Source: Phycisphaerae bacterium
GTDB taxonomy: Bacteria; Planctomycetota; Phycisphaerae; Phycisphaerales; SM1A02
Direction of reading: 5' to 3'
Length of the DNA: 42,002 nt
Assembly: GCA_016873275.1 (NCBI GenBank)
Contig: VGXO01000023.1
Coordinates: forward strand, 1 to 42,002
Made by a program: the position numbers and the translations under genes. Below, piece after piece: positions 2,316 to 39,727 of the stretch. How positions within the stretch are numbered: position 1 is the stretch's first letter; the number at the start of each line of letters is the position of its first letter. Below the pieces are notes generated by a model, which worked only from the letters and a program-made list of their open reading frames with translations, was not told where the DNA came from and made no database searches.

Positions 2316-2321
2316 TACCAT
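2316..2321 (+). promoter_or_regulatory. Candidate -10 box for a leaderless mntA transcript
   Basis: TACCAT ends 6 bases before the mntA ATG, so transcription would start at or next to the start codon. No Shine-Dalgarno sequence is visible. The same arrangement recurs at several genes in this window. No good -35 box is seen. Confidence 0.45.
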
Positions 2322-2327
2322 CGCGTC

Positions 2328-2618
2328 ATGACCCTCGACGACGTCCGGCACCGGATCGCCCCGATCCGCTCGCGACTGGAGGAACTCGGCGTGACGCGGA
2401 TCCGCGTCTTCGGTTCCGTCGCGCGGGACGAGGCGACTTCCGCCTCCGACGTCGACTGCCTGCTCGACTTCGACGGCGCCCCGTCGCTCTTCACCCTCGC
2501 GCGGGCGAGGTCGCTGCTGTCGGAGGCGATCGGCGTCGAGGTCGACGTCGCGACGCCGGGGATGCTCCGAGGTCCGCTGGTGAAGGCGGTCGCGCGGGAC
2601 CTTCGCGATGTCGCGTGA
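2328..2618 (+). CDS. mntA: MntA-type minimal nucleotidyltransferase (antitoxin)
   Basis: A 96-residue single-domain nucleotidyltransferase of the MNT family. The signature GSx10DxD is complete: G29-S30, then D41 and D43. In characterised MntA-HepT pairs the MNT protein transfers AMP groups from ATP to a tyrosine of the HepT ribonuclease and so silences it. The stop overlaps the next gene by 11 bases, the usual layout of this two-gene module. The start is ATG 2328, which has no ribosome binding site but a TACCAT box 6 bases upstream. It could equally be called a generic nucleotidyltransferase, but its HEPN neighbour supports the toxin-antitoxin reading. Confidence 0.85.
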   Translation: MTLDDVRHRIAPIRSRLEELGVTRIRVFGSVARDEATSASDVDCLLDFDGAPSLFTLARARSLLSEAIGVEVDVATPGMLRGPLVKAVARDLRDVA

Positions 2619-2964
2619 CGACGCGGAGTGGCTGGTCGAACTCGAAGGGTCGGCGCGGCGGATCCTGGAGATCCTCGGCGACCGTGACGTGGCGGCGATG
2701 ATCGCGACGCCCTTCCTGCTCGAGGCGATCCTCCACCACCTCGCGGTGCTCGGCGAGGCGGCGGGGAAGGTGAGCAACGACGTTCGACGCGGGATGCCCG
2801 AGCTCCCTTGGCGGGAGATGCGCGACACCAGGAACTTCGTGGTGCATGCCTACTTCCGGATCGATCCGGAGGTGATCTGGCGCACCTGCCGGCAGGACGT
2901 TCCCGCGCTGGTCCAAGCGATCGATCGGCTCCGTCGAGATGGTCGGTGGTCCGACGCGTCCTAG
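2608..2964 (+). CDS. hepT: HepT-like HEPN ribonuclease (toxin)
   Basis: A 118-residue all-helical HEPN protein (DUF86/HepT type). The catalytic RX4HXY motif is intact as RNFVVHAY, with R75, H80 and Y82. R and H make the RNase site of HepT dimers, and the tyrosine is the residue AMPylated by MntA in studied systems. Translation is coupled to mntA by an 11-base overlap (ATG 2608, mntA stop 2618). All key residues are present, so the module looks functional. The RNA target cannot be read from the sequence. Nothing around it marks a mobile element, although such modules are often mobile. Confidence 0.83.
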   Translation: MSRDDAEWLVELEGSARRILEILGDRDVAAMIATPFLLEAILHHLAVLGEAAGKVSNDVRRGMPELPWREMRDTRNFVVHAYFRIDPEVIWRTCRQDVPALVQAIDRLRRDGRWSDAS

Positions 2965-3019
2965 GTCCTGGACCAAACCTCGCCCCCTTGCCCCCGCCAC
3001 CGCCCGGACCCCCCCCGCC

Positions 3020-3596: not shown

Positions 3597-3664
3597 GGCT
3601 CATCCGACCCGACGGCTCATCCGATCCGACGGCTCATCCAACCCGACGGCTCATCCAACCCGTT
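3597..3664. repeat. Four tandem copies of a 17-bp repeat
   Basis: Four head-to-tail 17-bp units lie at 3597-3613, 3614-3630, 3631-3647 and 3648-3664. The consensus is GGCTCATCCGACCCGAC, with one or two differences in each unit. The array ends at the stop codon of the minus-strand sigma-region-4 gene, so it would form the first part of that gene's 3' untranslated region. The rest of 3500-3663 shows nothing else. Confidence 0.85.
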
Positions 3665-3903
3665 CAGGCGCTGCGGAGGCTCTCGAGCCGCGGACGACCG
3701 GCGAGCGCCGTCCGCACCCGGGCGGCGGCGGCGTCGAGGGTCCGCTGGACCTCGACCGCGGTGAGGCGGGTGACCGAGGCGATCTCCGCGACGGTCAGCT
3801 CCTCGGTGTAGCGGAGCGCGACCACCAACCGCTCGGTGCGGTCGAGTCCGGAGGCGAGATCACGAATGAGGGCGGCATCCTTGCCGTGCAACGAAGCGTG
3901 CAT
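3664..3903 (-). CDS. Small sigma-70 region 4-like DNA-binding protein
   Basis: A 79-residue protein that is almost entirely a sigma-70 region 4 helix-turn-helix: DRTERLVVALRYTEELTVAEIA and the following recognition helix around VTRLTAVEVQRTL. It has no region 2, so it cannot be a full sigma factor. It may be a degenerate sigma, a transcription modulator or a LuxR-like regulator. I placed the start at ATG 3903, which has GGGAG eight bases upstream. ATG 3969 or GTG 3984 would add a Cys/His-containing N-terminus and cannot be excluded, since a promoter-like TAGCAT sits at 4003-4008. It follows the HD-GYP gene by 150 bases on the same strand, but the intervening promoter suggests its own transcript. 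Confidence 0.62.
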   Translation of the reverse strand: MHASLHGKDAALIRDLASGLDRTERLVVALRYTEELTVAEIASVTRLTAVEVQRTLDAAAARVRTALAGRPRLESLRSA

Positions 3904-4002
3904 GGGCGACTCCCGGCGGTGACGGCATCCTGCCGTCGCCGAGGACCCGATCGTCCGCAGGTCGTCCATCCATGAACCACCCACGCGGTCGATCCGCGTC
4001 GG

Positions 4003-4008
4003 ATGCTA
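4003..4008 (-). promoter_or_regulatory. Candidate -10 box upstream of the sigma-region-4 gene
   Basis: TAGCAT on the minus strand would place the transcript start near 3996. The leader down to ATG 3903 would be about 93 bases, or much shorter if GTG 3984 or ATG 3969 is used. Confidence 0.35.
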
Positions 4009-4053
4009 CTGGCACCCCATCGCGCGGCAACTCTCCCTGACAAACCCCGACCA

Positions 4054-5247
4054 TCAGGCGGCGCGGCTCGAGCGCTCGTCGGAGCTCGATCGCCCCTGCC
4101 CGGCGCCGATGCCGGCCGCGTGCTCCGCGCGACGGAGCTCCTCGAACGCGCGGAAGTCGAGCCCAAGGAAGACCGGCACCATCTCCGGGTCGAAGTGGGT
4201 GCCGCGACCCCGCCGCAGTTCCGCGAACGCCTGCTCGTGGCTCAGCGCCACGCGATAGGGACGGTCGGAGACCATCGCGTCGTAGGCGTCTGCGATCGCG
4301 ACGATCCGGGCGAGCCGCGGGATCCGGGCGCCGCGGAGTCCCTTCGGATAGCCGAGCCCATCCCACCGCTCATGGTGATGCCGCACGGCGCCGAGCACCG
4401 ACTTCATGCCGAGCCACCCCCGCAGCAGCCGGCAGCCGATCTGCGGATGGCGGCGGACCTGGGCGTACTCCTGCCGGGTCAGCGGTCCGGGCTTCCGGAG
4501 GATCCGGCTCGGAAGCGCCACCTTGCCCACGTCGTGGACGAGCCCGGCGAGCTCCGCGCGGCGGACCTGGGTCGCCGAGAGACCCAGCGCCTCCGCGAGC
4601 ATCCGGCAGAGGAGCGACACCCGCCGCGAGTGACCGCGGTTGGTGGGATCTCGGCGGTCGATGCCGGAGACGAGCGCCACGATCGGCGCGTCGCCGGGAT
4701 CGGCAGAGTTCAGGGACGAGGTCATCGCGGTCGAGTCGGGAGTGCCGAGGAGTCCGGTCGCCTCCCGCGAACGGTCCACCAGCGACCAAAGCCGCCGGAG
4801 CATCCGGACCTGGCGATCGAGGTCGCCCTCCGCGACCAGACCCGCCCGACGCATGAGCGACTCCATCGCCCGCCGGTCCGCGCCGGCGGTCGCGCAGAGC
4901 TGGTCCATCGCCTCGCCCCGAAGGAGCGCGTCGGTGCAGGCGATCGCGGCGATCCAGCCGCCGGAGGCGACCTGAAGAGGGACCGCGACGCAACCCTCGG
5001 CGAGGGTCGCGACCTCCGGCTGCGGATGGCTGGTCCACCGCCGCGCGGCGTCCGCGAGGCGGCGGGCAAGCATGGTGCTCCGCTTGAAGAGCTCGATGCG
5101 GAGGGCGTCCGCGGCGCGGCGACCCTCGGGCCAGCGGACCTTGCCGTCCGCGCCGACGCGGACCGGCACGAGACCGACCTCGAGCAGGGTCGTCAGCGCA
5201 TCCTCGATCACCGACGGCGCGGCGCGGAACTCCACGGGCTGGTTCAT
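4054..5247 (-). CDS. HD-GYP domain protein (probable c-di-GMP phosphodiesterase)
   Basis: A 397-residue cytoplasmic protein. The C-terminal half is an HD-GYP domain: HDVGK with H238-D239, HPQIG, and the diagnostic HHHERWDGLGYPKGL, whose GYP triad marks enzymes that hydrolyse cyclic di-GMP. IADAYDAMVSDRPYR follows. Residues 1 to about 170 form a poorly conserved, probably GAF-like sensor region with a CVAVPLQ...GWIAAIAC segment. No membrane helix is seen. I prefer ATG 5247 because a purine-rich stretch precedes it; ATG 5271 is an alternative. It lies 177 bases after the TPR lipoprotein gene of the secretion operon on the same strand, so it may set c-di-GMP levels for that machine. All metal-binding residues of the family core appear intact. 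Confidence 0.85.
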   Translation of the reverse strand: MNQPVEFRAAPSVIEDALTTLLEVGLVPVRVGADGKVRWPEGRRAADALRIELFKRSTMLARRLADAARRWTSHPQPEVATLAEGCVAVPLQVASGGWIAAIACTDALLRGEAMDQLCATAGADRRAMESLMRRAGLVAEGDLDRQVRMLRRLWSLVDRSREATGLLGTPDSTAMTSSLNSADPGDAPIVALVSGIDRRDPTNRGHSRRVSLLCRMLAEALGLSATQVRRAELAGLVHDVGKVALPSRILRKPGPLTRQEYAQVRRHPQIGCRLLRGWLGMKSVLGAVRHHHERWDGLGYPKGLRGARIPRLARIVAIADAYDAMVSDRPYRVALSHEQAFAELRRGRGTHFDPEMVPVFLGLDFRAFEELRRAEHAAGIGAGQGRSSSDERSSRAA

Positions 5248-5424
5248 CTCTTCTCTGCCTCTCTGGTTCATGGTTCTCGATCGCCGCGGGAGGACTCCCT
5301 CGGCATCCTCCTCATCGGCACGGCTTCCGACCCGCTTCACGACCCGACCCGGCTCCCGCGAGGTCCGTCCGATCGGCGCTCCGCGCGAACGGCGCGACCC
5401 GCGCGGACGGACCGCGGGACCACC

Positions 5425-6618
5425 TCAGTTCGTCGCGGGTCGGCTCTCCGACACGAGCCGCTTCGCCACCGGATGATCCGGCTCGATGCGGAGCGTGCCC
5501 GCGAAGGTCCGGTAGGCATCGTCGTGTCGGCCGGCACTCCGCTGCTCGAGCCCGAGCACCAGGCGCGGCAGGGCGTCGCTCGGGTTCAGCTCGACCGCCT
5601 TGGTGAGCGCCGCGATCGCCTCCTCGTGGCGACCCTCCGTCCGGGCGAGCAGTCCCTTGAAGAACCACGCCTCCCAGCGGTCGGGCGCCAGCATCACGAT
5701 GCGGGCGATGCACTGCGACACCCGGCGGTCATCGCCGAGCTGGTGGGCGGCACCCGCGAGCTCGACCCACGCGTCGACGTCCTCCGGGAAGAGCCGGGTG
5801 ATCTCGACGAGGACGTTCCGCGACTCGCTGGTGCGACCGAGCTCCGCGAGGCAGCGCGCCTCGAGGCGGAGGAGGTCGATCGAGGGCTCGGGGGAGGCGT
5901 TCTGCAGGCGCCGGCAGCTCTCGAGGGCGCCCTTCACGTCGCCGTTCGCCTGCTGCGCCCGGCAGAGCTCCTCGAGGAGGATGCGGTCCTCCGGCTGCAG
6001 GAGCTGCGCCTTGCGGAAGCGGTCGACCGCGGTCGCGGGGTCGCCATCCATCATGGCGATCTGCCCGAGCAGCTGGTGCATCGCCGCGTTGTTCTCGAAG
6101 TAGGTGAGCTTCGGCTCGAGCAGCATCCTCGCCGCGTCGAGGCGCCCGAGGGCGACCTCGCACTCGGCCGCGGCGAGCAGGTACTGGACCTTGGTCGGAT
6201 CGGCGTCGAACGCGGCGCGGTGCGCCTCGGACGCCGCATGGTCGTCCGACCAGCGCTCGAGGACCACCGCCCGGTAGTAGTGCGCCTCGTGGCACTTCGG
6301 GTCGAGCTTGATCGCCTCGTCGAAGGCAAGCTTCGCGCCCTCGAGCCGATGCGTCTCGAGCATGATCCGACCGAGAAGGACCTGATACGCCGCCTGGTCG
6401 GGGCTCTTCGCGATCGCCCCGCCGACCTCCTTGAGTGCGCGGTCGAACTGCCCCGCGTGGAAGGACTGGAGCGCCTGCTCGTACCCCACCTTGCTGCTGA
6501 CGAGGTTCATCCGCGCGTTGGCGGCGGCGCGGTTCTCCTTGCCCTTGGGGCTCGGACCGTTGCAGCCGGCGGCGAGGAGGAGGGCGGTCGCGGCGAGGGC
6601 GGAGGCGATGAGGCGCAT
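5425..6618 (-). CDS. TPR-repeat lipoprotein of the secretion/pilus operon
   Basis: A 397-residue lipoprotein. The N-terminus is a lipoprotein signal with lipobox LAAGC (Cys about residue 19). The rest consists of roughly nine tetratricopeptide repeats, seen as recurring motifs such as AFDEAIKLDPKCHEAHYYRA and EAIAALTKAVELNPSDALPR. TPR lipoproteins of the PilF/PilW type help secretins multimerise in the outer membrane, and this gene directly follows the secretin gene (gap 47 bases). That role is inferred from position. ATG 6618 has AAGGA seven bases upstream; ATG 6633 would add five residues and is less well placed. Confidence 0.82.
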   Translation of the reverse strand: MRLIASALAATALLLAAGCNGPSPKGKENRAAANARMNLVSSKVGYEQALQSFHAGQFDRALKEVGGAIAKSPDQAAYQVLLGRIMLETHRLEGAKLAFDEAIKLDPKCHEAHYYRAVVLERWSDDHAASEAHRAAFDADPTKVQYLLAAAECEVALGRLDAARMLLEPKLTYFENNAAMHQLLGQIAMMDGDPATAVDRFRKAQLLQPEDRILLEELCRAQQANGDVKGALESCRRLQNASPEPSIDLLRLEARCLAELGRTSESRNVLVEITRLFPEDVDAWVELAGAAHQLGDDRRVSQCIARIVMLAPDRWEAWFFKGLLARTEGRHEEAIAALTKAVELNPSDALPRLVLGLEQRSAGRHDDAYRTFAGTLRIEPDHPVAKRLVSESRPATN

Positions 6619-6665
6619 CGAGGGTCCTTCCATGGCGGAGGCGCGGGCGCAGCAGGCGTGGTCGG

Positions 6666-8525
6666 TCACTCCCTCACCGAGCCGGGATCGACGGGCTCCG
6701 CGGCGAGCAGCGGGTCCTCGTCGGGCATCGCCGACTGACCGGGCGCCGGCTCCTGGCCGCGGGCGACCTCGACGTCGAGGATGCGGTCGAGCATGCTGCG
6801 GATCGGAAGATCGCTCCCCTGCTTCGCGGTGATCTCGTTGCGGAGCTTGATCATCTCCGGCTGGTTGGGGTTGATCCGGAGCGAGCTGTTGATGTGGAAG
6901 AGCGCCGTCTCGTAGTCGCCCTTCTCGTAGGCGGCGTACGCGTCCTGGTTCTGGTTGCTCGACATCAGCTCGCGGCTGAAGGGCAGCAGGCCCGCCCGGG
7001 CGCCGACCCGCACCGCGTCGACGAACTCCTGCGCCTCCTTGCTCCACGCCTCGACGAGGTGGTCGTGCACGATCGTCGGCGTGATCAGGAACATGATCTC
7101 GCGGCGGACGATCTTGTCGGCCTGACCGGAGAACGCGGCGCCGAGGATCGGGATGTCGCCGAGCCACGGCACCTGCTTGCGGCTGATCGAGGTGTCCTCC
7201 TGGAAGAGACCGCCGAGGACGAGGGTCTGACCGTCCCGCATGCGGACGTTCGTGGTGATCTCGCTGGTGCGCTCGTCGGGGATCTCCTGACCGAAGCCGC
7301 GGACGCCGGTCGAGGAGCGGAGCTTCGCCTCGGAGACGCTCGGGTAGAGCTCCATCCGGATCGACCCGTCGCTCGAGATGAACGGCCGGAAGATCAGCCG
7401 GATGCCCGTGTCGAGGAACTGCACCGTCTGGGTCGTGGAGGTCTCGGTCTGGGTCGTCGAGAGGTAGGCGATCCGCTCGCCGACGAGGACCTGCGCCCGC
7501 TGGCGGTTGAGCGCCATCACGCGGGGTCGGGCGAGCACGGTCGTGTCGCTCACCTCGTCGAGGACGCGGAGGAAGACCGCCACGTCCCCTTGGATCACGC
7601 CGACCTTCAGCCCGCCGGGACCGGTGGTGCCGCCGACGGTCGAGGTGATCGCCTCCGCCTCGTTGTTCGCGGGCACGAAGCCCTGCTCGGGATTCGTCGG
7701 CGTCGCGCCCGCGGTGTTGTTGCCCTGGAGCAGGTTGTTCACCGGGGCGAGCGGGTTGAAGTAGTTGGTGAACTCGGAGTTGAAGACGAGCGAGAAGTCG
7801 ACGCCGAAGGCGTTGTCCTCGTTGACGACCGTGGAGACGACCGTCGCCTCGACCACCACCTGCGTGGGCGGCGTGTCGAGCTCGCCGAGGAGCTTGCTGA
7901 TCGACTCGAGGTTGTCGACGTAGTCGTTGACGACCAGCATCGCCCCGTACGCCCAGCTGTCCTCGCCCGCCTCGGTGTCGTCGGGCTTGAAGCCCTTCTC
8001 GACGGCGCCGAGGAAGGAGATCTTGCCCTTCTCCGAGAGCAGCGGCTTCACGAACTCCGCCGCGTCCGCCGCGGAGAGGTACTCGAGCACGTAGCGGCGG
8101 CTCTCCCGCTGCATCGCGTTCTTCTCGAGCTCGTCGATCTCCTCGAGGGTGTAGACGTAGACGAAGTTCCCCTGCTCGAGGTAGCCGTAGCCGTTGACGT
8201 GGAGGATCGCGTCGAGCGCCTCCTGGAAGGTCACGTCGTAGAGGTTCGCCGTCACCCGGGCGGAGACCCGCTTGCTGGTGATGATGTTCTTCCGGCTCTG
8301 GAGCGAGAGCATCTGCAGGACCTGCGCAAGGTCGGTGTCCTGCACCGAGATGTCGACGGTCCCGAAGTCGTCGACGTCGACCTCGCCCGCGGATGGCGCA
8401 ATCCCGCCGCTCGGCGCCGCCTGCGTCTTCATGGGCGCGGCGGCGTCCTGGGCGAGGGTCGACGGAGGCGCGGCGAGGAGACCCGCCGCGAGCGCCGCGA
8501 GGGCGGCATGCCGGAAGTTGTCCAT
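6666..8525 (-). CDS. Secretin (GspD/PilQ family) outer-membrane channel
   Basis: A 619-residue exported protein that should form the outer-membrane ring of a type II secretion or type IV pilus machine. A signal peptide (about residues 1-26, ending STLAQ) is followed by an STN/N0-like domain (FGTVDISVQDTDLAQVLQML), an N1-like segment, and the C-terminal secretin domain, which includes ARPRVMALNRQRAQVLVGE, LVLGGLFQEDTS and VPWLGDIPILGAAFS. A TPR-like tail of about 110 residues follows, which is unusual for the family. An Asn-rich loop near the middle may form the gate or a spacer. ATG 8525 has AGGAG about nine bases upstream. The short N-domain array is more like PilQ than GspD. Neighbours are the pilin-biogenesis genes upstream and a TPR lipoprotein downstream. 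Confidence 0.9.
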   Translation of the reverse strand: MDNFRHAALAALAAGLLAAPPSTLAQDAAAPMKTQAAPSGGIAPSAGEVDVDDFGTVDISVQDTDLAQVLQMLSLQSRKNIITSKRVSARVTANLYDVTFQEALDAILHVNGYGYLEQGNFVYVYTLEEIDELEKNAMQRESRRYVLEYLSAADAAEFVKPLLSEKGKISFLGAVEKGFKPDDTEAGEDSWAYGAMLVVNDYVDNLESISKLLGELDTPPTQVVVEATVVSTVVNEDNAFGVDFSLVFNSEFTNYFNPLAPVNNLLQGNNTAGATPTNPEQGFVPANNEAEAITSTVGGTTGPGGLKVGVIQGDVAVFLRVLDEVSDTTVLARPRVMALNRQRAQVLVGERIAYLSTTQTETSTTQTVQFLDTGIRLIFRPFISSDGSIRMELYPSVSEAKLRSSTGVRGFGQEIPDERTSEITTNVRMRDGQTLVLGGLFQEDTSISRKQVPWLGDIPILGAAFSGQADKIVRREIMFLITPTIVHDHLVEAWSKEAQEFVDAVRVGARAGLLPFSRELMSSNQNQDAYAAYEKGDYETALFHINSSLRINPNQPEMIKLRNEITAKQGSDLPIRSMLDRILDVEVARGQEPAPGQSAMPDEDPLLAAEPVDPGSVRE

Positions 8526-8682
8526 GACTCGTCCGCTCCTGGTGGAACGGAGCAGCCCCTGCAGCGAGGCTCCCGCGCCGGAACTGAGGGCGTCGGTCGA
8601 TCGCGGGTCGAGATGATCGTGCACGGGTCCGCTCCGATCGGTCCGCGAGCGCGGACCGCCGGAACGACCGGACGGAACGCGA

Positions 8683-8982
8683 TCACGTGGTCTCGGGTTC
8701 CTCGGCGCGTTCCCGGTCCGACTTTGCCTCTCCCTCCGACTTGCCGGACGAGTCGGCGCACGGCGTGGACTGCTCCGACGGCGCCCGGTCCGGGAACCGC
8801 GGCGCCGCCTCGCGAGGCTCGGCGATCGCGGTGCGGGGGATGTTGGTGAGGATCCGAAGCCTCGCCCACATCAGGAGACCCATCGGCTTCAGCCAGAGCA
8901 CCGTGGCGATCGCGGCGAGCGGCACCGCCATCCTCGCGAGCCGCCCCAACTGCCGCCGCCTCGTCGTCGTGTTCGTCCTCAT
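8683..8982 (-). CDS. Small membrane protein in PilP position
   Basis: A 99-residue protein with a basic N-terminus (MRTNTTTRRRQ), one membrane helix at about residues 17-40, and a hydrophilic, charged C-terminus ending in a Glu-rich tail. Its ATG overlaps the stop of the preceding gene (ATGA), so translation is probably coupled. It stands between the PilO-like gene and the secretin, the position of PilP in type IV pilus operons, but it lacks a lipobox and is shorter than PilP. I do not recognise its family. The 157 bases between it and the secretin gene hold no gene that I can support. Confidence 0.6.
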   Translation of the reverse strand: MRTNTTTRRRQLGRLARMAVPLAAIATVLWLKPMGLLMWARLRILTNIPRTAIAEPREAAPRFPDRAPSEQSTPCADSSGKSEGEAKSDRERAEEPETT

Positions 8983-9362
8983 CGCCCTTCCTCCCTCCGC
9001 ATCGCCGCGTCGTCGAGGACCTCGGCGATGAGCCGCGGTCCGCCCTCGTCGACCGCCACCACCTCGAGCCGAAGCCCGCCGCGTCCCGCGGGCGCCTGCC
9101 GCTCGAAGGACCGGATCCACTCGAAGACCTCCGACGCCGAGCCCTCCCGCCGGACGAGGACTCCCTCCGTGCCGGCTCGCGCGAGGACGTCCTGGACCGC
9201 GACCGCCCGGCGCTCGAGGCGGGACGCCTCCAGCGACGCAGGCACTGCGACGCACGCCGCGATCGCCACGGCCGCGAGCACGCGGAGGATCGGCGACCTC
9301 CGGGATGCCTGAGGCTCGACGCCACCGCGAGCCAGGTCGTCCGACCTGACGTCCTCGCTCAT
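8979..9362 (-). CDS. PilO/GspM-like inner-membrane protein
   Basis: A 127-residue bitopic membrane protein. A short cytoplasmic N-terminus precedes one helix (about residues 24-44, ILRVLAAVAIAACVAVPASL), then a coiled region and a compact periplasmic domain. The ending LRLEVVAVDEGGPRLIAEVL is consistent with the ferredoxin-like fold of GspM/PilO. In such machines this protein pairs with PilN/GspL in the alignment complex. The identification rests on topology and gene order more than on sequence. Both ends overlap neighbours by four bases, showing tight translational coupling. Confidence 0.6.
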   Translation of the reverse strand: MSEDVRSDDLARGGVEPQASRRSPILRVLAAVAIAACVAVPASLEASRLERRAVAVQDVLARAGTEGVLVRREGSASEVFEWIRSFERQAPAGRGGLRLEVVAVDEGGPRLIAEVLDDAAMRREEGR

Positions 9363-9868
9363 GACGACCTCCCGTCCGCGAGGACCGAGGTGCCTCGCTC
9401 GCTCGTCCGCTCCGGACCTCCGAGGTCGAGGAGGAACCGCCCCGCGGATCCGCCCGGCTCCGGCAGGAAGAGTCCGTGGCGCACGCCCCCGAGGAAGCGA
9501 TGCTGGTCGAGCGCCTCGCGGAACGCCTCGAAGCGTCCGCGGGAGGTCGCGGTGCCCGCCACGCGGATCTCGAGGGACCGTCGCGGGAGCTGCCGCGCGA
9601 TCCAGCCGAGCTCGAACCGCTCGCAGCGGACCCCGTCGCCCGCGGCGGAGACGATCGTCGAGATCGCCGCGGTGAGCGGAGGGGCGGGCGCCGCGCCGTG
9701 CTCGACCATCGCCCGCTCCGACGCGTCCACGCTCGACTCGATCCGCGCGAGGCGGTCGAGCGTCGAGAGCCCGACGGCGGCGAGCATTCCCGCGACCGCC
9801 GCGATCCCGAGCGCCGACGCGGCGATCCGAGGACCGCGACCGCGCGGCGATGAGCAGCATCCGGGCAT
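9359..9868 (-). CDS. PilN/GspL-like inner-membrane protein
   Basis: A 169-residue bitopic protein with a membrane helix at about residues 13-37 and a periplasmic domain. The segment RSLEIRVAGTATSRGRFEAFREAL matches the pattern seen in PilN proteins (a beta strand ending in xGxA, then a helix). PilN links the inner-membrane alignment complex to the actin-like PilM; no pilM gene is present in this window. ATG 9868 is preceded by GGGAGG. The stop overlaps the next gene by four bases. Family assignment is by topology and context. Confidence 0.6.
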   Translation of the reverse strand: MPGCCSSPRGRGPRIAASALGIAAVAGMLAAVGLSTLDRLARIESSVDASERAMVEHGAAPAPPLTAAISTIVSAAGDGVRCERFELGWIARQLPRRSLEIRVAGTATSRGRFEAFREALDQHRFLGGVRHGLFLPEPGGSAGRFLLDLGGPERTSERGTSVLADGRSS

Positions 9869-9900
9869 CCCTGCCTCCCCTCTCCGAGCGCGTCATGGCG

Positions 9901-10458
9901 CTACGGTGCCGTCGGATCCTCGGCGGCGGCGACGCTGATCTTTCCGGTGAACGCATCGAACCCGACCCGATAGGTCAGGTTGTCCGAGCGCACCACGAGG
10001 ACTCCGCCGGTTCCCGGAACTCCTCCCTCGGAGATCGTGCCGCCGAGCGGATCGAAGGTGATCCAGGTGCGGCTGCCGTCGATCTCGATCCCCTCGAGCC
10101 GCACGCCGGCGTAGCGGCGGTCGGCGGCGAGGTCCATGACCATCTGCTGCTCCCCCGACGCGAGCGGATCCCGCACGAACTCCGCGGTGTCCGGATCGAA
10201 GGGAAGCCCGAGCTGCGACTCCTCGAGGCGCACCACGCTCCAGCCGAGGCCCGTCGGATCGAAGTAGACCCGGCGATATCCCTGGTCGGCGAGGGCATCC
10301 GACTGCGCGAAGGTCACGTCGCTCACGAGGCGGCGGAGCACCGCCTCGACGGCATAGGTGTCCCGCCGCACCAGGCTCGGGACGAGCAGGGTCGCCGCGA
10401 TCGCGAGGATCGCGATGACGATGATCAGCTCGAGCAGCGTGTAGCCCGCGCGGCGCAC
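9901..10458 (-). CDS. GspH-like pseudopilin
   Basis: A 185-residue minor pseudopilin. The type III signal is at the very N-terminus: a positively charged MRRAG followed by YTLLELIIVIAILAIAATLL. Cleavage by a prepilin peptidase is expected after the Gly, and the Glu at mature position 5 is present. The C-terminal domain is beta-rich and about 150 residues long, as in GspH/FimT proteins. Translation begins at a GTG codon only one base after the stop of the preceding gene, so the two are coupled. No prepilin peptidase gene is in the window. Confidence 0.85.
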   Translation of the reverse strand: MRRAGYTLLELIIVIAILAIAATLLVPSLVRRDTYAVEAVLRRLVSDVTFAQSDALADQGYRRVYFDPTGLGWSVVRLEESQLGLPFDPDTAEFVRDPLASGEQQMVMDLAADRRYAGVRLEGIEIDGSRTWITFDPLGGTISEGGVPGTGGVLVVRSDNLTYRVGFDAFTGKISVAAAEDPTAP

Positions 10459-10459
10459 C

Positions 10460-10786
10460 TCAGCGGTCCTCGTCGGGCAGGATCACCCGCACCGGGAGCG
10501 GCGCGGCGGAGAGCCGCTTCTCCATGGCGCCGAGCCGCGCGTCGATCGAGCGGAGGAGGTCGATCATCGACTGCCGCTGCCGTGGCGGGATGTTGTTGAC
10601 GCCCTCGTTCGAGTAGACGTCCGCATCCTGCGCCGAGGCGCCCGCGGGTCCGAAGGGTCCGGCGCCGCGCATCCAGAAGGACGCGGCGACCGCCGCGAGC
10701 AGCACCGCGTTCGCGAAGAGGAGCCCGCGGACGGGACGCAGCGCCCGCGCGAGGAACGCGTCGGTCGTGGGTTCGGTTCGGTGCAT
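10460..10786 (-). CDS. Small single-pass membrane protein of the secretion operon
   Basis: A 108-residue protein of unknown family. A membrane helix spans about residues 20-40 (GLLFANAVLLAAVAASFWM). It is followed by a Gly/Pro/Ala linker and a short helical region, RQSMIDLLRSIDARLGAMEKRL, that may form a coiled coil. ATG 10786 has GAGGAG about seven bases upstream. The stop is one base from the GTG of the GspH-like gene. Similar small anchored proteins occur in planctomycete secretion operons, but I cannot name this one. Confidence 0.68.
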   Translation of the reverse strand: MHRTEPTTDAFLARALRPVRGLLFANAVLLAAVAASFWMRGAGPFGPAGASAQDADVYSNEGVNNIPPRQRQSMIDLLRSIDARLGAMEKRLSAAPLPVRVILPDEDR

Positions 10787-10811
10787 GGGAGGATCTCCTC
10801 GAGGGCGCGGC

Positions 10812-11402
10812 TCATCGCCCGCCGTCGGGTTCTTCGGTCGGCGAGGGAGGCGGCATGACCTCCTCCGCCCGCCGCGTGGCAAGCCAGACCGCGATCGCCT
10901 CGTCGAGCGGCGACGGCTCGCTCGACGGGATGGGGACCGCCCGCACCCGCGGGCTGCTGCGCCACGCCGCCAGCGCGCCGAGGTCCGAGAGCGCACGTGC
11001 CTCGAGCGGCGGCGGCGCCTCGCGCGGCACCCCGAAGTAGGCGATCCAGATCCCGAGCCGCTGCAGCCGGACGAGCATCGCGACCTCGACGTCGCGTCCC
11101 GCGTCGTCGATCGAGGTCACCTCGCCCGAGGCATCGGACGGGAGAGGTCGATGCCGCAGCAGGATGCAGCGGTCTCCGCCCGCGAGCGTGCGCTCGCCGA
11201 TCAGCTCGAGGCGGTCTCCCGCGCGGCAGCGGTCCGCGACGAGCCGGTCGACCTCCTCGATCGGAGGATCGTCCGTCGGCTCGTCGACCTGCGGTCGCGC
11301 CGCCAGCACGACCACCGCGAGCAATGCGATCCCGCCGCTCCGCAGGACGGTGCGCCGGGCGCGCGGCTCGACGGGATGTCCAGTTCCTTCTCCCGATCCC
11401 AT
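10812..11402 (-). CDS. Hypothetical membrane-anchored protein of the secretion operon
   Basis: A 196-residue protein that I do not recognise. It has a basic N-terminus, one hydrophobic segment (about residues 22-36, GGIALLAVVVLAA) and a soluble domain with segments such as RCRAGDRLELIGE and EVAMLVRLQRLGIWIAYFG. Two cysteines in the soluble part (DRCRAGD and GDRCILL) could form a disulphide if the domain is periplasmic. The C-terminal tail is rich in Pro and Glu. ATG 11402 is preceded by GAAGGA. It sits between the pseudopilin genes with short gaps (76 and 25 bases), so it is probably part of the same machine. Confidence 0.7.
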   Translation of the reverse strand: MGSGEGTGHPVEPRARRTVLRSGGIALLAVVVLAARPQVDEPTDDPPIEEVDRLVADRCRAGDRLELIGERTLAGGDRCILLRHRPLPSDASGEVTSIDDAGRDVEVAMLVRLQRLGIWIAYFGVPREAPPPLEARALSDLGALAAWRSSPRVRAVPIPSSEPSPLDEAIAVWLATRRAEEVMPPPSPTEEPDGGR

Positions 11403-13115: not shown

Positions 13116-13154
13116 GTCGGGCTCCATCCGCGTCGGCGGCGATCAGGTCCGTGC

Positions 13155-17182: not shown

Positions 17183-17188
17183 TACCAT
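17183..17188 (+). promoter_or_regulatory. Candidate -10 box for the CsgG operon
   Basis: TACCAT lies 27 bases before ATG 17216. The leader contains GGAGG, so this transcript would carry a normal ribosome binding site, unlike the leaderless cases in this window. Confidence 0.4.
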
Positions 17189-27262: not shown

Positions 27263-27268
27263 ACGGTA
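27263..27268 (-). promoter_or_regulatory. Candidate -10 box, leaderless
   Basis: TACCGT on the minus strand ends seven bases before ATG 27255. No Shine-Dalgarno sequence is seen. The 330-base divergent gap 27256-27586 holds this box and the one at 27575 and no gene. Confidence 0.45.
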
Positions 27269-27574: not shown

Positions 27575-27580
27575 TAATCT
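27575..27580 (+). promoter_or_regulatory. Candidate -10 box, leaderless gldA
   Basis: TAATCT ends six bases before ATG 27587. A 14-bp direct repeat (TCGAGCGCGGCAGG) lies immediately upstream, at about 27542-27555 and 27557-27570, and could be an operator. Confidence 0.5.
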
Positions 27581-30240: not shown

Positions 30241-30246
30241 TAGACT
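30241..30246 (+). promoter_or_regulatory. Candidate -10 box, leaderless symporter gene
   Basis: TAGACT ends seven bases before ATG 30254. No ribosome binding site and no clear -35 box are visible. Confidence 0.45.
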
Positions 30247-31643: not shown

Positions 31644-32660
31644 CTATCGACCGTGGCGTCGCGCCCAGCGCCGACGCGATGACGCGATGACGCCGAGCGT
31701 GCCGAAGTAGACGATGAGCGGCAGCGCCACCGCCGACGCGAGGCCGATCAGCATCATCGCGGGGAAGCCGAGACCGAGACCGTCCTTGGACCACGCGATC
31801 ATGATCGGCAAGGCGACGCCCGGCACCACGTACCCCGCCACGAAGACCACCTTGAAGAACCGCCCCCGCGCCCGGGGATCCGAGAGGGGCGCCCGCGGGA
31901 GGTCGCGAGGCGCCTGATCCGCGGAGATGCCCACGTCCTGCTCGAGGCGCGACGCGAGCATCGACGCCTGCCCTCCGGAGGAGTCGAGGGGTCGAAGACC
32001 ATCGAGGGTGTTGATCGAGCTCGGGACGAGGTCGATCGCGCGCCCCCCGGCGTCGAGCTTCCATGCCCACGCGGTGAGGAGCGCCGCGTCGCGGACCTCC
32101 GGCGTCCCGTCCGCGCCGCGGATCGTGACCCGCGCGGGCGATCCGGTCACCCGGTGGATCCGCGACGCGGGGATCATCGAGATCGTCGGCGGCTTGAGAA
32201 GCCTCCGACGGTCGATCGACCCGAGTCCCGCCGGCGAGAACACCCAGCGGATCTCGCGCCCGGCGGGCGCCGCCCGCGCGGCGCCCCTCGCCCGCCGCGA
32301 GCGGCGCCAGAGGTCCCATCCCAAGGAGAACGCGACGCCTCCGGAGCTGACGGCCAACCCGAGCGACGCGATCCGCGGCATGGGCGAGAACCCCCCGATC
32401 ACCGACGAGATCACGGCAAGGAAGGCGACGGCGTTCACGGCGAAGAACACCTTGACGATCGTCGGGTTCGCGCCAAGGTTCACCGGGTGCAGCGAGCCCT
32501 CGATCACCCGACCGCCCGCGGGCACCACCAGCCCGCACTCGGGACATGCGACGCGGTCGGTGAAGACGCCATCCGAGGTCGTCGGCGCCCCGTCGAGCGC
32601 CGCAAGGTCGTACTCGCACTTCGGGCAGTGCGGCGGCACCGCGGGGAGCGTGGTGATCAT
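31644..32660 (-). CDS. Zinc-ribbon membrane protein of unknown function
   Basis: A 338-residue protein. An N-terminal zinc ribbon (HCPKCEYDL and ACPECGLVV; four cysteines in two CxxC pairs) is followed by two close membrane helices near residues 70-115 (VKVFFAVNAVAFLAVISSVI; LGLAVSSGGVAFSLGW). A cytoplasmic beta-rich region and two C-terminal helices (FFKVVFVAGYVVPGVALPIM; MMLIGLASAVALPLIVYF) complete it. This layout is common among uncharacterised planctomycete proteins. ATG 32660 lacks a ribosome binding site, but TACCCT ends seven bases upstream. No function can be given. Confidence 0.75.
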   Translation of the reverse strand: MITTLPAVPPHCPKCEYDLAALDGAPTTSDGVFTDRVACPECGLVVPAGGRVIEGSLHPVNLGANPTIVKVFFAVNAVAFLAVISSVIGGFSPMPRIASLGLAVSSGGVAFSLGWDLWRRSRRARGAARAAPAGREIRWVFSPAGLGSIDRRRLLKPPTISMIPASRIHRVTGSPARVTIRGADGTPEVRDAALLTAWAWKLDAGGRAIDLVPSSINTLDGLRPLDSSGGQASMLASRLEQDVGISADQAPRDLPRAPLSDPRARGRFFKVVFVAGYVVPGVALPIMIAWSKDGLGLGFPAMMLIGLASAVALPLIVYFGTLGVIASSRRRWARRHGR

Positions 32661-32667
32661 GGGGCGG

Positions 32668-32673
32668 AGGGTA
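32668..32673 (-). promoter_or_regulatory. Candidate -10 box, leaderless
   Basis: TACCCT on the minus strand ends seven bases before ATG 32660; no ribosome binding site is seen. Confidence 0.45.
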
Positions 32674-35676: not shown

Positions 35677-35706
35677 TTGCCGCCTGCCCGCGGCGCGCAT
35701 TACCAT
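35677..35706 (+). promoter_or_regulatory. Candidate promoter, leaderless lipoprotein gene
   Basis: TTGCCG (35677-35682) and TACCAT (35701-35706) are 18 bp apart. The -10 box ends eight bases before ATG 35715, and there is no ribosome binding site. Confidence 0.55.
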
Positions 35707-35714: not shown

Positions 35715-36956
35715 ATGCCCCGGACCATCCTCGCCGCCCTCCCCTCCCGCGCCCCGCGCCTCGCGACACTAGCCTGCCTTGCCTTGCTGCCGCTCGGCGG
35801 CTGCGCCTCGATGACCGCCAACCAGATCGAGGAGGAGCACGTCGCCTTCAACACCGCCGTCGCCGACGCGATGAACCGGCAGATGCTCCTCAACATCGTG
35901 CGGCTCTGGCGCGCGGAGTCCACGCAGTGGATGCAGGTGGCGTCCATCAACACCACCGCCGAGTACAGCGTGGGGATCGGCGGCGCGGCGTTCTTCAGGG
36001 ACGGTCAGACGACCGGCGACCTTTCCGGGCGCGGCGGATACTCCTACCGCCCCACGCTCACCTTCAACCCGCTCGAGGGCGAGCAGCTCGCCCGCGAGCT
36101 GATGTCGCCGGTGCAGGTCGAGAACATGGTCAACCTCGTCAGCGCCGGCTGGCCGGTGAGCTGGCTCCTCTTCCTCGTGGTGGACCGCTGCGAGGACCTC
36201 GAGTCCTTCGACGTCAGCGAGCACTTCGGGGTCATCGCGGGCGATCCGCGGTTCGGTCGCCTGCTCGAGATGTGCGACGACCTCGAGAGGCGGCAGCTGA
36301 TATCGCTCGTGCTCTCCCAGATCCCGGTGACGTGGAACGCGAAGCCGCTCGGTCCCGAGCAGGTGACCGCCGGGGCGATCTCCTCCGCCCGCGACGACAA
36401 CTGCCGCTTCATCCTGCGGGAGGATGGCGCGTACGACTACATGTCCGTCGAGGTCGCGCCGGTCTTCGTGATGTACCCGGGACTGGAGGATGACGAGGTC
36501 GGCAAGGAGTTCGTCTCGCTCATGCGGCTCGACCCCGGACCGAACTCCTACCGACTCGTCACCGTGGACTCGCCGATCATCGCCGACCTCACCGTCTCCG
36601 TGCAGACGCGGTCGATGCTCGCCATGCTGCGCTTCCTGAGCTACGGGGTCGCGGACTCGCTCGACCAGCCGCAGGTTCGACCGATGAGCCCGAGCGAGGT
36701 GTTCCGGTCCCTCACCGAGTCGGAGAGCCATGACCGCGTCGTCAAGAGCGCCGTCCGGAACTTCTTCCGGGTGAACCGGTCGACCTCCCGGCCGACCCGC
36801 GCGGCGGTCGAGGTCCTCCACGAGGGCTCGTGGTACTGGATCGCGGAAGACGACCTGCTCTCGAAGCAGCTCTTCTCGCTCATCCGCGACCTCTACGACC
36901 TGCAGGTGAAGTCGCAGTCGGGCGGTCGACCGATCCTCACGATCCCCGTCGGCTGA
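35715..36956 (+). CDS. Large lipoprotein of unknown function
   Basis: A 413-residue lipoprotein with lipobox LGGC (Cys about 32). The mature N-terminus has FNTAVADAMNRQMLLNIVRLWRAESTQWMQV, followed by a beta segment (AEYSVGIGGAAFF), a Gly-rich stretch and the motif YRPTLTFNPLEGEQLARELMSPVQVENM. The C-terminus ends LQVKSQSGGRPILTIPVG. These segments recur in uncharacterised Gram-negative lipoproteins that I recall as having an xLLNIVRLRY motif; no activity is assigned to them. It is probably attached to the outer membrane. The gene stands alone, with its own candidate promoter. Confidence 0.8.
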   Translation: MPRTILAALPSRAPRLATLACLALLPLGGCASMTANQIEEEHVAFNTAVADAMNRQMLLNIVRLWRAESTQWMQVASINTTAEYSVGIGGAAFFRDGQTTGDLSGRGGYSYRPTLTFNPLEGEQLARELMSPVQVENMVNLVSAGWPVSWLLFLVVDRCEDLESFDVSEHFGVIAGDPRFGRLLEMCDDLERRQLISLVLSQIPVTWNAKPLGPEQVTAGAISSARDDNCRFILREDGAYDYMSVEVAPVFVMYPGLEDDEVGKEFVSLMRLDPGPNSYRLVTVDSPIIADLTVSVQTRSMLAMLRFLSYGVADSLDQPQVRPMSPSEVFRSLTESESHDRVVKSAVRNFFRVNRSTSRPTRAAVEVLHEGSWYWIAEDDLLSKQLFSLIRDLYDLQVKSQSGGRPILTIPVG

Positions 36957-37003: not shown

Positions 37004-37024
37004 CGAGTCGGATCCATCGACTCG
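37004..37024. terminator. Hairpin between convergent genes
   Basis: CGAGTCG and CGACTCG form a 7-bp stem with a 7-base loop in the 130-base convergent gap. There is no T-tract, so its action as a terminator is uncertain. Confidence 0.35.
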
Positions 37025-37086
37025 GCGTACTTCCGCTCGCACCGCTCGCACTCGCCAATCCCTCATCGCTCGTCGCCCTTCCGTCG

Positions 37087-39690
37087 TCACGATCCCCACG
37101 CCGCGAGGAGCGTCGCGAGGTCGCTTCCGCCGACGAGCCCATCGGCGTCGAGGTCCGCGCTGCATCCGTCGCAGGATCCCCAGTCGGCAAGCAGCAACCC
37201 GAGGTCGGCGCCGCCCACCTCGCCGTCGCCGTTGAGGTCCGCGATCGGACCCTCGCAGGCGTCCGGCAGGAGGTTGCCGTTGCGGTCGGTCTCGCTCGCG
37301 GGAGCGACGACGATCGCGGTCGCCCTCGGCGCATCGATCGGATAGACGCGGAGCGTGCGCTCGACGTAGCCGTTCGCGACGACGTAGCCGTTGATCGACG
37401 CGCTCGAGACCGGCGAGGTCGCGACGACGCTGCGGTCGTCGCGGGCGAAGGCGATCGCCTGCACCCGCGCGGCAAAGCCGCTCCCCTGCACGTCCCAGCG
37501 ACCGAGCCATTCGCCGGTCGCGCTCACCCGGTGGATCGCGTCGAGGGCGCTCGCCGCGACGAGGATCGACCCGTCATGAAGCGGCAGGATCCCACGCAGC
37601 TCCGGCGCCATCGCCTGCATGTCGGCGAGGATCGTGCGGGTCCCCTGCGGCCACGCCAGCCGATGGACGAGCCCGCCTCCCGTCGAGACGAGCGCCTCGT
37701 GGGTGCCGTCCGCGAGCCTGCGGAAGGCGAGGTCGCGGGCGTCCCCCTCGGCGAACGCCGACGCGAAGGGCTCGACGCTCGCGCCGTCGGTCGAGAGGAG
37801 CACGATCCGTCCCGAGCCGAGCATCACCGCGAGTCGACCATCCGGCGCGACGGCGACCGAGCGCACCTCGCCCTCGAGCTCCGGACCCCACGGGCGTGCC
37901 GCCTGATCAAGCACCGGATCGAACGCCCACGCGCGGCTCCCCGACGCCGCGTAGAGGCGACCATCGGCGGCGAAGGCGAGGTCGAGGATCGGCGCGGTGC
38001 CGACGACCACCGTGCGCCGCAGCACGCCCGACCTCGGATCGAGCTCGCGGAGGAGCGCATCCGCCTCGCTTCCCACCCAGCGCGACTTCGAGCCGCGGAG
38101 CGCCTGGAAGTCGTCGATCCCGTCGCCGTCGCAGTCCTCGCAGGCGTCGATCCGGCCGTCGCGCGATCGGTCGAGCGTCATGTCCGCGTTGATCGCGTCG
38201 GAGTCGGCGACGCCGTCGCCATCGCAGTCCTCCTCGCAGGAGGCAAGGACGCCGTCGCCGTTTCGGTCGAGCGTCGGGTCCGCCTGCGCCTGGTCGTGGT
38301 CGGGCACGCCGTCCGAGTCGCAGTCCTGCTCGCAGGCGTCGGGTCGGAGGTCGCCGTCGGCATCGACGAGCTCGCCGGAGGCGATCTGCACCGGATCCGG
38401 CACGCCGTCCGAGTCGCAGTCCTGGCAGGCGTCCAGCACGCCGTCGAAGTTCTGGTCGAGCGAAGGATCGGCGGCGATCTCCTCGGCGTCGGGCAGCGCG
38501 TCGTCGTCGCAGTCGGAGTGGAGGCACTCCGCCGCGGCGAGCAGACCCACGATCGGCGCGACCGTGCCGCGGTGCAGGTAGAGGTCGATGTTCGCGCTCG
38601 CCCCGGACCGCACGTGGCAGTAGCTCATGATCGTGCCGCGCTGGACGACGCCGGAGGCGCAGCCGTCGATCCCGTAGTCGTGGGTATGCCACGTGCCGAG
38701 GTTGTGACCGAGCTCGTGGGCGACGACGTTGGGATCCCAGCTGCCCGGGCTGGTGCGCGATCCAGCGACGAAGCGACCGAACATGTAGCCGTTGACCGAG
38801 TAGCCGTAGTCGGGATTGCAGGCGGCGTTGAGCCACGCGACGCCGCCGTAGGGAAGGTTGCGCCGCCCGGTGAGCAGCGTGAAGAGGTCGCGCTCGATCG
38901 AGCCGCCCTCCGCGACCCAGTAGTCGCGGAAGGGTCCGAGCGGATCCGGCTCGTTGAAGAGATCCTCCGGCGAGGGCTGGAGGCGCAGGTAGGCGAGGAC
39001 GATTCCCGCGTCGCAGTCGCGTCGGTAGATCGAGGAGACCTCGCCGACGAGCGCCGCGACGTACTCGACGGCGGCGACCTCGCTCGGGAAGATCCGGAGG
39101 AACTCGTGGTCCGAGTCGACCGCGAGCTCGACGATCTTCCGCATGCCCGGCGGCACCGCGGCGAACCCGGCGACGGCGCCCTCGTCGCCCGGCGCCGGAG
39201 CGAGGCAGCGGCAGCGCTCGACCTCGGGATCGGCGGCGCCGGCGATGCGCACGAAGCTGCTCGGTCCGGCGCAGAGTCCCGCCGCAGCATCGTCGAGCCC
39301 ACGGAGACCGAAGAGCCCGCGGCCAGCGCCGAGGTCGATCATCGCCGCCACGCCGGTCGTGCCGACCGCGACGAAGGCACGCGAGCGATCGACTCCCTCG
39401 ACCACGCCCTCGAAGTGCGCGACGCCCTGCAGCGCCCGCGTGAGGTCCTCGTCGAGCGACCGCTTCATCGAGCCGACCTCCACGACCGCGTCCGGCGCGA
39501 CCACCGGGATCGGTCGCAAGGTCAGCGAGACCTCGCCGACGCCCGGCAGCAGGACTCGCGCGACGCCGCCGTGGGCGGTCACGCTCGAGAGCGCCGCGAC
39601 CGGATCGAGCGGGACCTCCGGGCGGGGCAGGCCCTTCGACGGGGGGAGCATCGCGACGCAGGCGAGGAGCACGCCGGGCAGGCTGGTCAT
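37087..39690 (-). CDS. Secreted metzincin metalloprotease with calcium repeats, propeller-like region and C-terminal dockerin-like pair
   Basis: An 867-residue exported protein. A signal peptide (about 1-20) and a prodomain-like region precede a zinc protease domain whose active site HELGHNLGTWH (residues 325-335) fits HExxHxxGxxH exactly; the Met-turn is GTIMSYCH. About five Asp-rich repeats of thrombospondin-type-3 style (DCDSDGVPDP, DCDGDGVADS) follow at about 385-500 and should bind calcium. Residues 510-790 form WD/NHL-like repeats (ILDLAFAADGRLYAAS; VRSVAVAPDGRLAVML). The C-terminus has two EF-hand modules, ADLNGDGEVGGADL and ADLDADGLVGGSDL. ATG 39690 lies eight bases after a TACCTT box. 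It resembles M12-type reprolysin-like proteases; the substrate is unknown. Confidence 0.88.
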   Translation of the reverse strand: MTSLPGVLLACVAMLPPSKGLPRPEVPLDPVAALSSVTAHGGVARVLLPGVGEVSLTLRPIPVVAPDAVVEVGSMKRSLDEDLTRALQGVAHFEGVVEGVDRSRAFVAVGTTGVAAMIDLGAGRGLFGLRGLDDAAAGLCAGPSSFVRIAGAADPEVERCRCLAPAPGDEGAVAGFAAVPPGMRKIVELAVDSDHEFLRIFPSEVAAVEYVAALVGEVSSIYRRDCDAGIVLAYLRLQPSPEDLFNEPDPLGPFRDYWVAEGGSIERDLFTLLTGRRNLPYGGVAWLNAACNPDYGYSVNGYMFGRFVAGSRTSPGSWDPNVVAHELGHNLGTWHTHDYGIDGCASGVVQRGTIMSYCHVRSGASANIDLYLHRGTVAPIVGLLAAAECLHSDCDDDALPDAEEIAADPSLDQNFDGVLDACQDCDSDGVPDPVQIASGELVDADGDLRPDACEQDCDSDGVPDHDQAQADPTLDRNGDGVLASCEEDCDGDGVADSDAINADMTLDRSRDGRIDACEDCDGDGIDDFQALRGSKSRWVGSEADALLRELDPRSGVLRRTVVVGTAPILDLAFAADGRLYAASGSRAWAFDPVLDQAARPWGPELEGEVRSVAVAPDGRLAVMLGSGRIVLLSTDGASVEPFASAFAEGDARDLAFRRLADGTHEALVSTGGGLVHRLAWPQGTRTILADMQAMAPELRGILPLHDGSILVAASALDAIHRVSATGEWLGRWDVQGSGFAARVQAIAFARDDRSVVATSPVSSASINGYVVANGYVERTLRVYPIDAPRATAIVVAPASETDRNGNLLPDACEGPIADLNGDGEVGGADLGLLLADWGSCDGCSADLDADGLVGGSDLATLLAAWGS

Positions 39691-39698
39691 GGTTCCTG

Positions 39699-39727
39699 AA
39701 GGTAGCCCCGCCTTGCTCGCCTCCCAA
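39699..39727 (-). promoter_or_regulatory. Candidate promoter of the metalloprotease gene, leaderless
   Basis: On the minus strand, TTGGGA and TACCTT are exactly 17 bp apart. The -10 box ends eight bases before ATG 39690. AGGAAC lies between, too close to act as a normal ribosome binding site if transcription starts at the ATG. Confidence 0.55.

Follow-up and report, generated by a model that had tools for sequence, protein, structure and literature searches.

The usual examples of leaderless-rich bacteria are the Actinobacteria and Deinococcus-Thermus, and the leaderless genes of Deinococcus are reportedly documented by RNA-seq in D. deserti. The sequence signature of such genes has been described by Zheng et al. 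2011 (PMC3160421), whose TA-led genes carry a TANNNT motif with its first T some 12 bp ahead of the start codon and with middle bases that are uninformative in high-GC genomes. Among the groups listed in their table are Actinobacteria and Deinococcus-Thermus; the available text of that paper mentions no planctomycete, Rhodopirellula or Pirellula, and its "Other Bacteria" row (8/20 genomes) could include such organisms. For mycobacteria, the accessible part of Shell et al. 2015 (PMC4633059) reports that a 5′-terminal ATG or GTG is needed, and that CTG and TTG are ineffective. Nakagawa et al. 2017 (PMC5397173) include, in the text available, a single planctomycete with a bias ascribed to leaderless mRNA and/or S1. 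The signature itself is thus already known (Zheng et al. 2011), and what we add here is its reach across an order and a phylum.

The window we analyze is the whole stretch of 42,002 nucleotides. A preliminary description of it had proposed that seven genes carry a TANNNT hexamer 6–8 bases before their ATG, and all seven hexamers are found (Table 1). All seven ATGs are also picked by an order-4 Markov gene finder that is blind to upstream sequence. The further claim that these genes have no usable ribosome binding site is not literally true at 39690, where AGGA sits between the TACCTT box and the ATG. That they are first in their transcripts is beyond doubt for 27255, 27587, 32660, and 35715, and less sure for 2328 (a same-strand gene ends 40 bases upstream), 30254 (same-strand gene 135 bases upstream), and 39690 (same-strand gene 383 bases upstream). 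Three promoters with a −35 box had been proposed as well; two are as described, and the third, at 25974, is no case of the pattern, because its TAGATT and the next ATG are separated by just 3 bases, and this ATG is not in the reading frame of the local gene. As for relatives, the gene at 27587 has a 62%-identical one in L026 with TACACT-7-ATG at the same codon, and the one at 30254 has a distant homologue (34%) in G008 (L043) with TAGCCT-6-ATG. Footprinting with 18 kb of window DNA produced scattered partial matches, and conserved gene order was not found.

Table 1. Putative promoter elements in the window and the genes that follow them.
Feature	Position	Strand	Arrangement	Gene
Putative −10 box TACCAT	2316..2321	+	gap 6 to ATG 2328	NTP_transf_2 domain protein, 2328-2618
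Putative −10 box TAATCT	27575..27580	+	gap 6 to ATG 27587	iron-containing alcohol dehydrogenase family, 27587-28693
Putative −10 box TAGACT	30241..30246	+	gap 7 to ATG 30254	sodium:dicarboxylate symporter, 30254-31570
Putative −10 box TACCAT	35701..35706	+	gap 8 to ATG 35715	35715-36956, without Pfam match
Putative −10 box TACCGT	27263..27268	-	gap 7 to ATG 27255	26035-27255, without Pfam match
Putative −10 box TACCCT	32668..32673	-	gap 7 to ATG 32660	31644-32660, without Pfam match
Putative −10 box TACCTT	39699..39704	-	gap 8 to ATG 39690	reprolysin-like metallopeptidase, 37087-39690
Possible −35 box TTGCCG	35677..35682	+	18 bases ahead of −10 box	35715
Possible −35 box TTGGGA	39722..39727	-	17 bases ahead of −10 box	39690
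TACCAT, leadered arrangement (contrast)	17183..17188	+	27 bases before ATG 17216, GGAGG site between	

Gene-based counts were made on a sample of 442 kb of the 3.23 Mb genome, which is GC-rich, using in-house gene calls. The 318 classed genes are either divergent (108) or co-directional, with a gap of at least 80 (96), of 31–79 (40), or of at most 30 (74). We call first genes the divergent ones together with the co-directional ones at a gap of at least 80 (n = 204), and inner genes the co-directional ones at a gap of at most 30 (n = 74). We say that a gene is box-led if a TANNNT lies 5–9 bases before its start. By this measure 32/108 divergent genes are box-led, while other distances give 1–6, and dinucleotide shuffles of the upstream sequence give a mean of 1.18 and a maximum of 5 in 300 rounds. 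A comparison with shuffled upstream sequence at the same distance had been set beforehand as one of the refutation tests, and the motif is far commoner than in the shuffles. For the co-directional genes, in order of decreasing gap, the box is found in 7/96, 4/40, and 4/74 (shuffle means 0.41, 0.17, and 0.23). The contrast between divergent and inner genes (p = 4.4e-5) is an enrichment in first genes, and the box at four operon-internal genes implies that some operon calls are wrong or that internal promoters exist. In total 47/318 genes are box-led, about 13–15% (after and before background subtraction, respectively).

Before divergent genes, the box peaks sharply at gaps 6 (7/108) and 7 (16/108), with none at gaps 0–5, and the 47 box-led genes distribute as 18, 19, 6, and 4 over gaps 6, 7, 8, and 9. 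Without any gene calls, the 442 kb contain 23 instances of TANNNT-N6-ATG and 24 of TANNNT-N7-ATG, while the remaining gaps between 0 and 30 give 0–7; over the whole genome, TANNNT-6-ATG occurs 152 times vs. 26 at gap 12 and 21 at gap 18. GTG also peaks at gap 6 in the gene-call-free counts on the 442 kb (11 cases), and TTG, CTG, and ATC show no peak after TANNNT in those counts. When all motifs of the form X1X2NNNX6 are compared, TANNNT alone stands out (6.0-fold), the next one being TANNNC (1.35-fold). The base directly before the start is C in 79% of the 47 box-led genes vs. 52% of other first genes and 64% of inner genes.

Shine-Dalgarno (SD)-like sites are depleted in box-led genes: 3/39 box-led first genes have one vs. 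70/165 other first genes (p = 2.6e-5). The anti-SD is intact in this genome, and operon-internal genes do mostly have SD-like sites instead (44/74), as had been suggested. The −35 boxes, on the other hand, are weak as support. A TTG at 16–18 bp is present in 3/47 cases in this genome, the two of Table 1 among the three, where five-wide windows at other spacings give 0–3; pooling 10 genomes of the order results in 12/138, where three-wide windows at other spacings give 1–6.

As controls, starts from the gene finder (order 3) agree with the annotation in 34/42 E. coli CDS and 31/39 D. deserti CDS. The same pipeline finds a box in 8/51 first genes of D. deserti plasmid 2 (100 kb) vs. 1.4 at control distances, and it finds no box excess in E. 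coli (3/51 first genes vs. 4.9 at control distances).

We think it very probable that transcription of the box-led genes begins at the start codon, yielding leaderless mRNAs. The hexamer has the TANNNT form of a sigma-70 type −10 box, and with a promoter box placed so near the start codon, the mRNA would be expected to begin at the start codon itself. If the boxes are −10 elements, an RNA polymerase starting 6–8 bases downstream of the hexamer would have the first base of the start codon, A or G, as its starting point; the resulting mRNA would have neither a 5′ leader nor an SD site, and its 5′-terminal AUG or GUG would be bound directly by the ribosome. Two systems would then run in parallel, a leaderless one for about 30% of the clearly first genes, and an SD-led one for most operon-internal genes and also for many other first genes. 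The earlier suggestion that first genes are often leaderless is supported to that extent by the box frequency in divergent genes. In orthologue pairs from the samples, the partner is box-led for 6/16 box-led genes vs. 3/43 other genes (p = 0.009). Several observations go against the leaderless reading: the partner lacks a box in the other 10/16 pairs, the rate in distant co-directional genes is modest (7/96), 165/204 first genes have no box, four operon-internal genes do have one, and the −35 element, which a sigma-70 promoter should have, can hardly be detected. The limited sample (442 kb of 3.23 Mb) and its in-house gene calls also count against it.

Could the boxes be promoters whose RNA starts a few bases upstream, leaving leaders of 1–5 bases? 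The cases at gaps 8 and 9 (6 and 4 of 47) would allow it, as a start 6–7 bases past the box would fall 1–3 bases before the ATG; but gaps 6 and 7 make up most cases (18 and 19 of 47), and the restriction to ATG and GTG suits a start codon at the 5′ end, so we regard such leaders as improbable. We give even less credit to the box marking a regulon, under a single alternative sigma factor or a single regulator, as opposed to how the organism generally expresses its genes. With no clear −35, the sequence does not settle the promoter class, which leaves room for a regulon, but the box-led genes are mixed and largely housekeeping (20 of 40 cases outside the window examined), including SHMT, a W/Y-type tRNA synthetase, a lumazine-binding domain protein, a DNA polymerase beta-like protein, shikimate enzymes, and aldehyde dehydrogenase, and there are 152 sites in the whole genome at gap 6 alone.

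An AT-rich unstructured patch, no promoter at all, could instead help leadered mRNAs without an SD site, for instance via ribosomal protein S1, which is present; gene starts are in fact less stably folded than gene interiors. This we consider close to impossible: T1, A2, and T6 are needed jointly, with TANNNA (0.55-fold) and TTNNNT (1.12-fold) not enriched, a motif specificity that rules out a general AT-rich patch. The flanks of the box are C/G rich, and box-led genes cannot be told from other first genes by their folding over +1..+40 (means −8.1 vs. −9.0, p = 0.52). Chance or an artifact of start calling has a similarly negligible probability. The window by itself holds only seven cases, but chance is ruled out by the shuffles, the distance controls, and the gene-call-free and whole-genome counts, and a start-calling artifact by the gene-call-free counts together with the gene finder controls on E. 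coli and D. deserti.

How far does the signature extend? With a whole-genome threshold of z = 4, it is present in 56/61 sampled genomes of the order and in 40/111 of the phylum's genomes outside the order, leaving 71/111 below the threshold. Within the order, G039 shows no whole-genome signature (417 vs. 413), and its sample gives 4/57 first genes vs. 1.4 (p = 0.055). Other sampled members of the class show no excess (15/164 divergent genes, control windows 5–21), and none of the three other families of the class in the whole-genome draw (f13, f18, and f20; 4 genomes) passes z = 4. We use the gap-12 count as a proxy for AT content in the compared genomes; whole-genome ratios shrink with rising gap-12 background, where the power of the test falls too. 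As an example at similar background, G144 has 225 vs. 43 at a gap-12 count of 18 per Mb, and G203 has 130 vs. 111 at 20 per Mb. We lean, by a small margin of belief, towards leaderless initiation being a major and old expression mode of the whole order and of several other families of the phylum (probably Planctomycetota), while other families, some with similarly low AT background, lost it or never had it; the switch between leaderless and leadered would then be traceable within one phylum.

Another large leaderless-rich group would affect start annotation and expression design, and a box 6–7 bases before an ATG or GTG would fix the start in annotation. It also bears on how leaderless and SD-led initiation evolve, a question that is testable by comparison because the phylum offers contrasts at similar background such as G144 vs. 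G203.

With respect to known systems, the planctomycete case of Nakagawa et al. 2017 (PMC5397173) concerns one species, the two causes are not separated, and TANNNT is absent from the available text. In mycobacteria, leaderless transcripts are identified by RNA-seq and ribosome profiling (in the accessible part of PMC4633059), while here we infer them from sequence; the restriction to ATG and GTG is the same. D. deserti shows the same signal in the same pipeline, and belongs to another phylum. The TA-led genes, as described in the available text of Zheng et al. 2011 (PMC3160421), have the same TANNNT, with the first T about 12 bp upstream vs. 12–13 bp here, and the distance, the SD absence, and the enrichment in first or single genes by which they are recognized are all found in this genome.

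The window is contig C23 of a genome that comprises 3,233,085 bases in 136 contigs. Together with the leading 20 kb from each of contigs C1-C20 it forms our sample of 442 kb (71% GC). Genes were called with our own gene finder, an order-4 three-phase Markov model in which starts are set by coding score and start type alone. As controls, the same program at order 3 was run on two annotated regions of 50 kb each, where 3′ ends were right in 41/42 and 38/39 genes, and exact starts in 34 and 31. The preliminary description had listed seven genes in the window with a TANNNT hexamer (the box) just before the ATG (starts 2328, 27587, 30254 and 35715 on the plus strand; 27255, 32660 and 39690 on the minus strand). 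The sequence bears out all seven, hexamers as well as start codons, and the gene finder picked each of these starts.

The sample has 340 called genes, 331 of them with 60 bases of upstream sequence. Excluding 13 edge genes, we classed the remainder by upstream neighbor as divergent (n=108) or co-directional at a distance of at least 80 (n=96), 31-79 (n=40) or at most 30 bases (n=74). We say that a gene is box-led if TANNNT lies 5-9 bases before its start. This holds for 32/108, 7/96, 4/40 and 4/74 genes, respectively. The comparison with shuffled upstream sequences that had been proposed leaves the motif far above chance: 300 rounds of dinucleotide shuffling give means of 1.18, 0.41, 0.17 and 0.23 genes, and maxima of 5, 3, 2 and 3. 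Seven control windows at other distances in the divergent class capture 1-6 genes each. Among the remaining genes, 4/76 divergent and 6/89 distant ones have an alternative start with a box at gap 6-8, versus 0-2 at control gaps, so our counts are probably slight underestimates.

The signal does not need gene calls! In the 442 kb, read on both strands, TANNNT-Nk-ATG occurs 23 times at k=6 and 24 times at k=7, while all other k from 0 to 30 give 0-7; with GTG there are 11 at k=6 and 0-7 elsewhere, and with TTG, CTG or ATC the peak at k=6-7 is absent. The whole genome has 152 occurrences with ATG at k=6, 26 at k=12 and 21 at k=18. Relative to phase-matched distances, TANNNT shows a 6.0-fold enrichment at k=6-7 among hexamers of the form X1X2NNNX6, and the runner-up, TANNNC, reaches 1.35-fold.

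Box-led genes are also depleted of Shine-Dalgarno (SD)-like sites, defined as GGAG, GAGG or AGGA at -18 to -4. Such sites precede 3/39 box-led first genes (divergent, or co-directional at least 80 bases away), 70/165 other first genes, and 44/74 inner genes (at most 30 bases from a co-directional neighbor), in agreement with the earlier remark that genes inside operons use GGAG-type sites. The anti-SD at the end of the 16S rRNA gene is intact (GGATCACCTCCTTTCT), and the genome encodes ribosomal proteins S1 and bS21. Gene 17216 has the contrasting layout, with TACCAT 27 bases upstream and GGAGG in between. A Pfam scan covered 20 of the 40 box-led genes that lie elsewhere in the sample; 16 match a family, mostly metabolic or housekeeping. 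The preliminary finding is correct in substance; the proposed mechanism, in which first genes are often leaderless, has good support from sequence, and we consider leaderless transcription from these boxes very likely.

Aligned on the hexamer, the 47 box-led genes have TACCAT as their most frequent box (7/47), C at hexamer position 3 in 66%, and a discriminator rich in C/G. The base directly before the start is C in 79% and never A or T; C occupies this position in 52% of other first genes (n=165) and 64% of inner genes (n=70). TTG is found 16-18 bases upstream of the box in 3/47 cases. Pooling the window's genome with nine others of the order gives 12/138, versus 1-6 for equal-width windows at other spacings. 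The -35 element is probably real but minor in the order. Of three -35 examples suggested initially, two are among the 3/47 cases, and for the one at 25974 no start lies at the proper spacing. In the dockerin-containing gene there (24241-25974, minus strand) we saw no in-frame Met codon ahead of the signal-peptide-like stretch; TAGATT at 25952-25947 (minus strand) lies 3 bases ahead of an out-of-frame ATG. Dockerin-type domains in the window match Pfam Dockerin_1, and NCBIfam dockerin_GC under its cut-off. These domains, a MAG of Planctomycetota among otherwise mixed database hits, and a 16S gene with no 23S gene evident close behind it (see below) hint that the organism may be a planctomycete, perhaps of class Phycisphaerae.

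Among 54 head-to-head pairs, one gene is box-led in 22 and both are in 5. In pairs as close as those tabulated, the two promoters must be near each other or overlap.

Head-to-head gene pairs in which both genes are box-led (coordinates on sampled DNA pieces)
Piece	Coordinates	Bases apart
L012	3180-3232	51
L002	12290-12348	57
L016	4386-4459	72
L005	4691-4786	94

A few other features were seen along the way. In L001, the piece carrying the 16S gene, the frame after that gene has a further box-led start (TACGCT-CCGCCC-ATG) and reads by eye like an ABC ATPase; visual inspection of the 1.5 kb following the 16S gene showed no 23S gene. The window has a tmRNA gene at 22875-23223 (plus strand; Rfam, 116.6 bits) that ARAGORN missed. 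A PilQ-like secretin, under the curated cut-off, occupies 6666-8525 (minus strand) within a run of minus-strand genes, 3664-13127, that may be a cluster for a type IV pilus or for secretion.

The box is conserved in some relatives. Comparing the sample with relatives' samples at 40% identity or more and 70% coverage gives 59 orthologue pairs, in which, with some genes in several pairs, the partner is box-led in 6/16 pairs for box-led genes vs. 3/43 for other genes (Fisher p=0.009). For gene 4786 of L005 and its 90% identical orthologue in genome G002, the 22 bases before the ATG are identical and the sequence just upstream differs. For the iron-containing alcohol dehydrogenase gene at 27587 (box TAATCT), the start is shared by the closest relative reaching the N-terminus, which is in L026 and has TACACT-7-ATG there; two further relatives, from L022 and L023, also align at this ATG but have GGAG-type sites and no box, and the remaining relatives do not align at an ATG. 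The MAGs that contain the L026 (62%) and L023 (55%) relatives carry the labels Bryobacterales and Methylocystis, suggesting transfer or misbinning of contigs.

How far does the signal spread? Divergent genes carry the box in 14/86 cases in the sampled genus (controls 0-3), 13/104 in the family (0-5), 26/116 in the order (1-10) and 13/122 in other sampled members of the phylum (2-7); in other members of the class the excess is absent (15/164, controls 5-21). The same count gives 1/24 in E. coli (0-4) and 4/28 in D. deserti (0-2). Using whole genomes at least 90% complete in both draws, with seven shared genomes counted once under the order, the k=6 vs. k=12 comparison exceeds z=4 in 56/61 genomes of the order and 40/111 others of the phylum. 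The k=6/k=12 ratio drops as the k=12 background (a proxy for AT content) climbs, where the test is also weaker. Background alone does not set the spread, since five genomes (G203, G215, G075, G086, G198) have ratios of 1.1-1.3 at backgrounds of 20-28 per Mb, like many positive genomes, and in family f38 0/7 genomes pass z=4, two of them at low background. In two genomes TANNNT-N18-ATG is above N12 (G087, 63 vs. 36; G190, 72 vs. 39), and many of the words listed for G087 include GGAGG or GGAG; this is perhaps a second arrangement, SD-led and very short.

In the literature on leaderless and Shine-Dalgarno initiation in planctomycetes, as far as its accessible text goes, we found no description of this promoter signature in the group, which the GeneMarkS-2 paper may cover. 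The available text of PMC10783764 treats Phycisphaerae and Planctomycetia only within classes sorted by anti-SD type, and for one planctomycete leaderless and/or S1 initiation has been suggested (Nakagawa et al. 2017, PMC5397173). Systems of this kind are already known: Zheng et al. 2011 (PMC3160421) described the same signal and read it as leaderless genes, with averages of 19% for Actinobacteria and 39% for Deinococcus-Thermus, and StartLink (PMC9581028) reports a predicted use of leaderless transcription in 21.6% of bacterial species. The interest of our finding is in the lineage and in the contrast within it.
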